From NCBI RefSeq assembly GCF_000013385.1, contig NC_007760.1, forward strand, positions 2,357,001 through 2,421,000: a DNA stretch of 64,000 nt. The letters run 5' to 3'. This DNA is from Anaeromyxobacter dehalogenans 2CP-C (GTDB taxonomy: Bacteria; Myxococcota; Myxococcia; Myxococcales; Anaeromyxobacteraceae). Shown here one piece after another: positions 53,059-55,585 of this stretch (position 1 is its first letter; the number at the start of each line of letters is the position of its first letter). The position numbers and the translations under genes are program-made. Below the pieces are notes generated by a model. The model saw nothing but the letters and a program-made list of their open reading frames with translations, did no database searches and was not told where the DNA came from.

Positions 53059-53209
53059 GTCCCTCGACTCCGGCCGTGCCCCGTCACGTCCGCTCACCCC
53101 GAGCGTCCCTCGGCGGCGGCCGCTCACCCTGAGCGTAGGCGAGCCGCAGGCTCGCCGGAGTCGAAGGGTCTGGATGAGCGGCTCGGAGTCGAAGGCGCTG
53201 GGACGAGCG
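53059..53209. repeat. Cluster of TCGACTCCG / GCTCACCCTGAGC inverted repeats
   Basis: Bases include CCCTCGACTCCGG, CCGCTCACCCCGAGCG, CCGCTCACCCTGAGCGTAGG, GGCGAGCC-GCA-GGCTCGCC, GGAGTCGAAGGG and CGGAGTCGAAGG. Same family as at 35.2 and 37.0 kb; here between convergent aceF and an activator gene, where it can terminate both. Confidence 0.75.
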
Positions 53210-53211
53210 GA

Positions 53212-54222
<1,011 letters not shown>

Positions 54223-54273
54223 GGTGTTCCAGGCTGGAGCTTAACCGGGCCCGCCCCCGCGCGCATTCGCGCG

Positions 54274-54285
54274 TTCCGGCCGGAA
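54274..54285. promoter_or_regulatory. Palindrome between activator and iron-sulfur repair genes
   Basis: TTCCGGCCGGAA is a perfect 12-base palindrome, itself inside a larger inverted repeat GGGCCCGC (54247-54254) / GCGGGCCC (54287-54294). It is about 20 bases upstream of the sigma-54 promoter and could be an operator or an enhancer site for the divergent activator. Confidence 0.45.
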
Positions 54286-54303
54286 AGCGGGCCCTCCCGA
54301 GAT

Positions 54304-54319
54304 CGGCACGGCCCGTGCT
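54304..54319 (+). promoter_or_regulatory. Sigma-54 (-24/-12) promoter of the ric operon
   Basis: CGGCACGGCCCGTGCT matches the TGGCAC-N5-TTGCW consensus with GG and GC correctly spaced. The start site would be near 54330, giving a leader of about 20 bases that includes GAGGAG before the ATG at 54350. It is almost identical to the element before the symporter gene at 14.98 kb. Confidence 0.72.
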
Positions 54320-54349
54320 CTGGGCTCCCCCGAGGAGAAACGAACGAAC

Positions 54350-55045
54350 ATGCCCGCCATCGACCGCAACGCCACCGTCGCCGAGATCGTCACCGCCCAC
54401 GCCGTCACCGCCCGCGTCTTCCAGAAGCACCGCATCGACTTCTGCTGCCACGGGAACGTCAGCGTGGCCGAGGCCTGCCGCCCGCGCGCCCTCGACCCCG
54501 ACGCCGTGTTCGCCGAGCTGGACGCCGCGCTCCCCCAGGCGGACGGCGACGAGGATCCCCGCGCGCTCTCCACCTTCGCGCTCGTCGCCCGCATCGTGGA
54601 CCGCCACCACGCCTACCTGCGCCGGACCCTGCCGTTCCTCGAGCCGCTCGCGCACAAGGTCGCGAGCGTGCACGGGGACCACAACCCGCGCCTGTTCGGC
54701 GTGCGCGACGCGTACCTGGAGCTGGCCGCCGCGCTCGAGCCGCACCTCGACCACGAGGAGGCGGTGCTGTTCCCCGCGCTCCTCTCGCCGGCCCCGGACC
54801 GCGAGATCCTCCGCAAGGAGCTCGAGGGAATGATGAGCGACCACCTCCAGGTCGGCGCGCTGCTCGAGCGGATCCGCGCGCTCTCCGAGGGCTTCACCGT
54901 GCCGGAGTGGGGCTGCCGCAGCTACCGCGTGCTCATGAGCGAGCTGGAGACGCTCGAGACCGACGTGCTCCGCCACGTCCACCTCGAGAACCACGTGCTC
55001 ATGCCGCGCTTCGCCGGGCGCGCGACCGCCGAGGCGCGGGGCTGA
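54350..55045 (+). CDS. ric: Iron-sulfur cluster repair di-iron protein (RIC/YtfE/ScdA family)
   Basis: A 231-residue protein. The N-terminal ScdA domain (about 1-60) has VFQKHRIDFCCHGNVSVAEA with the Cys-Cys pair. The hemerythrin-like domain (about 75-225) carries the di-iron histidines and glutamates in IVDRHHAYLRR, VHGDHNP, HLDHEEAVLFPAL, MMSDHLQVG and RHVHLENHVLMPRF. RIC proteins help restore iron-sulfur clusters and metabolise nitric oxide under nitrosative or oxidative stress. It is transcribed from a sigma-54 promoter and translationally coupled (TGATG) to the next hemerythrin gene. Confidence 0.93.
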   Translation: MPAIDRNATVAEIVTAHAVTARVFQKHRIDFCCHGNVSVAEACRPRALDPDAVFAELDAALPQADGDEDPRALSTFALVARIVDRHHAYLRRTLPFLEPLAHKVASVHGDHNPRLFGVRDAYLELAAALEPHLDHEEAVLFPALLSPAPDREILRKELEGMMSDHLQVGALLERIRALSEGFTVPEWGCRSYRVLMSELETLETDVLRHVHLENHVLMPRFAGRATAEARG

Positions 55046-55506
55046 TGGCCCGCGCCACCGACGCCCTGCGCGCCACGCGCGCGGGGATCCGGGCGCGGCT
55101 GCAGGAGGTGGCGGAGAAGGCGGGCGCGGTCACCTCCGGCCCGCCCGCGGCGCGCGCCGCGACGATGCGCGAGGTGGTCGCCGGGCTCGACCGCTGCCTG
55201 CGCGGCCACCTGGAGTGGGAGGAGCGGACGCTCCACCCGGTGGTGGACAAGTTCGCCTGCGAGGGGCCGCGCGCGTTCAGCGCCTCCATGCGCTACGAGC
55301 ACGACATCATCCACCGCTGGATGGCCGAGCTCGCCCGGCGCGCCGGCGCTCCCGAGGACGCGGCCGGGTTCGTCCGCCACACCGACCGGCTGCTCGGCGT
55401 GGTGCTCGCGCACTTCGAGCTCGAGGAGGCGGTGTTCTTCCCCATCCTCGACGAGACCGCGGCCGGGCACGCCATCGGCGGTCCCCTGGCCCCCGCGCTG
55501 CCCTGA
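55045..55506 (+). CDS. Hemerythrin HHE domain protein
   Basis: A 153-residue four-helix protein. Likely metal ligands are in LRGHLEWEERTLHPVV, MRYEHDIIHRWM and VLAHFELEEAVFFPIL. It overlaps ric by one base, so it probably works with it, in oxygen or NO handling or iron donation. The N-terminal helix is Arg/Ala-rich. Confidence 0.87.
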   Translation: MARATDALRATRAGIRARLQEVAEKAGAVTSGPPAARAATMREVVAGLDRCLRGHLEWEERTLHPVVDKFACEGPRAFSASMRYEHDIIHRWMAELARRAGAPEDAAGFVRHTDRLLGVVLAHFELEEAVFFPILDETAAGHAIGGPLAPALP

Positions 55507-55522: not shown

Positions 55523-55585
55523 AACGACTCTGGGTCGGGGCGAAACGACTCTGGGTCGGGGCGAAACGACTCTGGGTCGGGAGGC
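55523..55585. repeat. Three tandem copies of a 21-bp unit
   Basis: AACGACTCTGGGTCGGGGCGA occurs at 55523, 55544 and 55565, the last with a changed end. Located just after the hemerythrin stop. The core ACTCTGGGT is conserved in all copies. Confidence 0.75.

Follow-up and report, generated by a model that had tools for sequence, protein, structure and literature searches.

A sigma-54 activator with an N-terminal cysteine motif faces ric in Anaeromyxobacter dehalogenans: a putative family of N-oxide-responsive activators in Myxococcota

The ric locus

The window considered here, i.e., the whole 64-kb stretch of DNA that was analysed, comprises bases 2357001-2421000 of the one-contig genome of Anaeromyxobacter dehalogenans 2CP-C (5,013,479 bases). 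Its forward strand carries ric (54350..55045), encoding an iron-sulfur repair di-iron protein with an ScdA_N and a hemerythrin domain (PF04405, 77.7 bits, and PF01814, 71.3 bits, by profile search). The protein belongs to the RIC family as defined by TIGR03652 (231.8 bits against a cut-off of 204.7) and is a plain member of the RIC/YtfE/ScdA group, with nothing notable about it. A second hemerythrin-like gene follows on the same strand (55045..55506; PF01814, 65.1 bits against a cut-off of 25.3), its start overlapping the ric stop as TGATG. The preliminary description of this DNA had proposed a RIC/hemerythrin operon; the identity of ric stands, and the start of the second gene is corrected to 55045. 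Homologues of this second gene lie directly 3' of ric in 7 of the 18 loci examined, all of them from Anaeromyxobacter (the window's locus and six others).

Divergent from ric, on the reverse strand, lies a gene for a sigma-54 activator (bEBP) of 336 aa (53212..54222). Two short repeats were observed at the edges of the locus: a 21-base tandem repeat in 2.8 perfect copies (AACGACTCTGGGTCGGGGCGA) at 55523-55581, just 3' of the hemerythrin gene, and a 28-base unit in 1.9 copies at 53156-53210, between the preceding operon and the 3' end of the activator gene.

The activator and its cysteine motif

The activator shows the features of a bEBP, namely an AAA+ domain with Walker A and a GAFTGA motif and a C-terminal Fis-type helix-turn-helix. 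Domain profiles assign PF00158 (232.5 bits), AAA_lid_14 (71.7 bits) and HTH_8 (59.8 bits); apart from overlapping AAA and HTH models, no other domain scored above its cut-off, and among the NCBIfam models listed the protein reaches the cut-off of none. The GAFTGA motif, the sigma-54 contact loop of bEBPs, was read in the alignment at residues 104-109 (53896..53913, reverse strand), and the helix-turn-helix spans residues 291-332 (53227..53352, reverse strand). The stretch ahead of the AAA+ domain is short, about 28 residues, and gave no GAF match. It contains Cys11-x-x-Cys14 (CAVC, followed by GL; codons at 54181..54192, reverse strand), which is invariant in all 24 aligned relatives. Domain profiles thus confirm the earlier view of a divergent GAFTGA-containing activator that has an N-terminal CxxC and no known sensor domain, and place the CxxC at residues 11-14. 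Structure prediction gave pLDDT values below 50 at residues 1-9 and 11-29, which are predicted to be disordered, and the best of five models had a mean pLDDT of 77.1 (the others 58.5-66.3). Because the first 29 residues are disordered and only one of the five models scored well, the prediction is uninformative about a metal site.

The alignment of 24 relatives served as query for a scan of Myxococcota, in which family members were detected in 33 of 195 genomes at 489-576 bits, the next match scoring 413 bits. Eight of 16 further genomes, those behind ric and similar loci, also hold members, and one of them holds two. In the phylogenetic tree, 41 members fall on one side of a branch with a support of 97/99 and nine paralogues on the other; the activator of the window lies within this clade and carries its CxxC ahead of Walker A. 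The motif is present in 41/41 members and 0/14 paralogues, at 46 and 43 residues before Walker A in 39 of the members and at 47 and 44 in the other two. Two additional cysteines (about C-x10-C-x2-C-x11-C) occur in 20 of the 41 members and are missing in 21; where present, the four cysteines lie at exactly -57, -46, -43 and -31 in 17 of 20 proteins and are shifted by one residue in three. The two- and four-cysteine types do not form clean clades (4 and 3 changes, respectively). Genome G208 holds one member of each type, a two-cysteine protein beside ric (L062) and a four-cysteine protein elsewhere (L178), each with an operator-like site at the activator start. Outside Myxococcota, a weak comparison with 398 genomes from the group of a Burkholderiales MAG, in which the best five candidates per genome were scored at E 1e-125, found no member.

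The invariance of the CxxC and its absence from the paralogues favor it as the best candidate sensor, as had been suggested from the locus itself. The cysteine pair is probably the sensor of the activator and may respond to NO.

The promoter of ric

A candidate sigma-54 -24/-12 element, CGGCACGGCCCGTGCT, lies at 54304..54319 on the forward strand with two mismatches to TGGCACGNNNNTTGCW; the ric ATG (54350) follows after a further 30 bases, which confirms the previously described position of the element. By convention, transcription begins 12 bases downstream of the GC in the -12 element, and the start of ric is therefore predicted at 54330 (forward strand). When the 160 bases upstream of ric were shuffled 500 times, a match as good as CGGCACGGCCCGTGCT arose once. 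Across the 64-kb window such elements are not significant, with 10 matches within two mismatches against 16.1 expected. The element is credible because of its conservation across loci, rather than by window statistics. Among 16 loci in which activator and ric diverge, 13 contain such an element, with no more than two mismatches, 18-99 bases upstream of ric, and in none of them did more than 7 of 500 dinucleotide shuffles score as well; the remaining three have three mismatches and are reached by 40-58 of 500 shuffles. These 16 loci include three near-copies (G000, G004 and G001) and four more from Anaeromyxobacter, and seven of them (G203-G209) were found via ric, so that linkage was selected there, but the promoter was not. 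This conservation supports the earlier proposal that ric has a sigma-54 promoter for which the divergent gene would encode the activator.

The operator and its distance to the promoter

Alignment of the intergenic regions revealed a 15-bp palindrome, GTTCCAGGCTGGAGC (54226..54240), which adjoins the activator start codon and is a predicted operator, or upstream activator site, with one mismatch to the family consensus GTTYC-N5-GRAAC. In a region reaching from 160 bases upstream of the activator start to 30 bases past it, the consensus was found exactly in 20 of 41 activator promoters (0.07 in shuffles), and 33 of 41 contain it with no more than one mismatch (0.86 in shuffles); several of the one-mismatch best hits lie away from the activator start (e.g., L005, L008 and L055). 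Beside ric, the site is mostly GTTCCANNNTGGAAC; members of the four-cysteine group often have GTTTC-N5-GAAAC. A further half site, GTTCCAT (54216..54222), holds the activator start codon, and a similar half site stands beside the operator in several relatives. In the 5.01-Mb genome, 54226-54240 is the sole exact GTTCCANNNTGGARC. The genome has ten operator-like places, none of them near its nosZ; among nine that were examined, a -24/-12 element at a distance of 20-160 bp was found only for the site at 54226.

Another palindrome, TTCCGGCCGGAA (54274..54285), had been taken as the likely binding site in the preliminary description. It occurs once exactly in the window and three times within one mismatch, against 0.25 expected. 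Read as GTTCCGGCCGGAAAG, it has one mismatch to the family consensus and thus ties with the site at 54226-54240.

Distances were measured between the centre of the operator and the GG of the -24 element. At ric and norB promoters, with near-copies collapsed, they were 72, 61, 64, 62, 62, 51, 71, 52, 62, 60, 72 and 62 bp. For the window, the distance was taken from the 54226 site (72) and not from the tied site at 25, and for G203 from the site nearer the activator start (64) and not from the tied one at 51. The 12 values cluster at 51-52, 60-64 and 71-72 bp, i.e., in steps of about one helical turn, and yield R 0.85 at a period of 10.5 bp, a value that none of 20000 uniform draws over the same range attained. 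When seven less certain pairs (six nosZ and G028) were added, the 19 distances gave R 0.47 (p 0.012) and fitted best at a period of 12.3. Since the phase signal weakens with 19 values, we limit the phase rule to ric and norB, whose distances obey it, and regard it as unproven for nosZ. At the nosZ promoters of four-cysteine members, the operator is exact in several cases, the -24/-12 elements are weaker and the distances are scattered (13, 37, 50, 60, 109 and 148). A NorB-type gene lies opposite the two-cysteine member of L117, and the operator there is 62 bp from the -24/-12 element, as for ric. Upstream of nosZ in L138 and L136, half sites of the form GTTCCG...GTGAAAC are separated by about ten bases more than those of the operator, which adds roughly one turn of the helix.

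An out-of-sample comparison of ric promoters was also made. None of nine ric genes from genomes without a family member has the operator within one mismatch, and three of the nine keep the -24/-12 element. In G199, activator and ric are on different contigs, yet an exact operator (GTTCCATTCTGGAAC) lies 72 bases from CGGCACGCGCCGTGCA before ric. In G006 and G011, whose only member is of the four-cysteine type, ric has the promoter and lacks the operator. A -24/-12 element without the family operator was likewise seen upstream of ric in L034, L036, L037, L042 and L054; in L036, L037 and L042, GGTG-rich repeats take the place of the operator and are perhaps sites of another activator.

Genes neighboring the family members

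Among the 33 members from the Myxococcota scan, ten adjoin a full-length ric, eight nosZ, two norB, one a DUF2249 gene and one an ScdA_N gene. At least 22 of 33 thus have N-oxide-type neighbors, in counts that cover part of the neighborhoods, several contigs being short, and 11 of 33 show no such neighbor in the stretch covered. The nosZ genes of L141 and L145, read from sequence alone, were left out of the count, as were two cases for ric: G009, whose gene resembles only the hemerythrin part of ric, and G114, with ric about 3 kb away. Beside the G009 activator, the locus L097 contains a gene for a hemerythrin-PAS protein along with the gene resembling the hemerythrin part only. Hemerythrin genes adjoin the activator in the nos loci L134, L138, L139, L142 and L144 and diverge from it in L089; multicopper oxidase genes are also among the family neighbors. 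The presence of ric, norB, nosZ and the DUF2249 gene beside the relatives supports the nitrosative-stress role that had been suggested for the circuit.

Comparison with known regulators

NorR, a sigma-54 activator often encoded divergently from NO-detoxification genes, has sites preceding dnrN/ric in some species, according to the portions of PMC1274295 and PMC9268430 consulted. The activator described here shares with NorR its type and its position opposite an NO-defence gene. It differs in lacking the N-terminal GAF domain and in its score against the NorR model, which has a cut-off of 476 bits (298.4 bits for the activator here and 341.5 for a four-cysteine member); these two differences exclude NorR as its identity. 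The predicted operator, a single conserved GTTYC-N5-GRAAC, also seems to depart from the tandem GT-N7-AC sites of NorR.

VnfA and AnfA are bEBPs with essential N-terminal cysteines, and a [3Fe-4S] cluster has been suggested in vitro for VnfA (PMC9542535, in the part consulted). N-terminal cysteines are common to these proteins and the present activator, whereas there they accompany a GAF domain and here they do not, and the targets differ; the combination of cysteines with GAF that marks VnfA-like proteins is therefore absent. Rhizobial NifA carries interdomain cysteines between AAA+ and HTH, which are linked to the redox/oxygen response, whereas the cysteines of the activator here precede the AAA+ domain. 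PspF resembles the activator in being a bEBP without an N-terminal sensor domain. The activator scores 262.7 bits against the PspF model, below its cut-off of 443.55, and PspF is not known to carry a cysteine motif.

Regulation of ric, as reviewed in the part of PMC9268430 consulted, involves NsrR, DnrD, NorR or SrrAB, from all of which the predicted control by a bEBP with a cysteine tag differs. Among the open-licence papers listed in our literature search, none concerned such a regulator, and the portions of PMC9268430, PMC1274295, PMC12316311 and PMC3162934 consulted do not mention one. The proteins thus apparently constitute a so far undescribed family of activators in Myxococcota, predicted from their sequences to respond to N-oxides.

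Proposed mechanism and alternative explanations

From sequence comparison (family, motif, operator, promoter, spacing and neighbors), we infer the binding, autorepression, signal and metal of a local circuit in which a Myxococcota bEBP with a cysteine motif, bound to its operator, would activate ric under the control of its cysteines; we assign this reading a probability of roughly 0.6. The divergent activator would bind the 15-bp palindrome at 54226-54240, which abuts its own start codon, and this binding would probably limit its own synthesis. From there, it would loop to the RNA polymerase held by sigma-54 at 54304-54319 and switch on ric and the second hemerythrin gene, while other family members may control N-oxide genes, namely ric, norB and nosZ. 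The most likely role of the cysteines is to bind a metal centre of the Fe-S, Fe or Zn type, and the AAA+ ATPase would be freed when this centre reacts with NO or a related signal. A more specific version, which we put forward tentatively and at somewhat less than even odds, is that the entire sensor of a Myxococcota-wide NO/N-oxide-sensing family is a metal centre on the N-terminal cysteine tag of about 30 residues. In nos-type members, four cysteines of one chain would hold this centre, and in ric-type members, the CxxC motifs of two neighboring subunits would share it; upon cluster loss or nitrosylation, the AAA+ assembly by which ric, norB and nosZ are activated would change directly.

Several alternatives bear on the role of the cysteines and on the signal. 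The CxxC might be a structural zinc knuckle or a dimer staple, with control exerted through the amount of activator, autoregulation or a signal read by the AAA+ domain. The CxxCGL stretch presumably resembles a zinc or rubredoxin knuckle, PspF-type bEBPs function without a sensor domain, two of the four cysteines are missing in 21/41 members and the operator overlaps the activator's own start. We nevertheless consider a structural role unlikely, as N-oxide targets occur in both the two- and the four-cysteine groups, so that a sensor is expected somewhere, and no other domain was found. A co-encoded hemerythrin-like protein could instead sense the signal and restrain the activator, as NifL does with NifA, a part that would fall here to the second hemerythrin gene. 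The hemerythrin genes adjoining or diverging from the activator in the nos loci and L089 fit this idea, as does the second gene following ric here and in six other Anaeromyxobacter loci; with that arrangement confined to Anaeromyxobacter (7/18 loci) and the CxxC present in 41/41 members, it seems quite improbable.

Instead of NO, the signal itself could be oxygen, the general redox state or the supply of copper or iron. Hemerythrins also bind oxygen, and nosZ and multicopper oxidase genes are among the neighbors; VnfA, moreover, is reported in the consulted part of PMC9542535 to be inhibited by metal chelators and superoxide generators. Against this, the targets ric and norB suggest NO as the signal (PMC9268430, in the part consulted), and we rate a signal other than NO as improbable. 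Still less should be expected of TTCCGGCCGGAA as the main operator, which we consider very unlikely. It is a perfect palindrome, rare in the window, and ties with the 54226-54240 site, but only 2 of 16 divergent loci carry it without mismatch, it is altered in G004 and absent from the others, and its distance of 25 bp from the -24 element, compared with 51-72 elsewhere, lies off the helical series. The earlier assignment of this palindrome as the binding site is thus not upheld. Because GTTCCGGCCGGAAAG fits the consensus with one mismatch, an auxiliary role is possible, and in the three closest strains TTCCGGCCGGAA may at most act as a weak secondary site.

Significance

Under the circuit that we favor, these activators would form a family of bEBPs that has its own operator and an unfamiliar kind of sensor tag. 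How Myxococcota regulate nitrous oxide reductase and NO defence is undescribed in the literature searched. With a short activator that carries a cysteine tag, an operator that can be read and a rule of helical phase, the regulon would be predictable from sequence, and the activator may offer a minimal system for how a metal centre gates a bEBP that has no folded sensor domain. If nosZ is controlled by the cysteine-tag activator, this would bear on when the soil N2O sink switches on.
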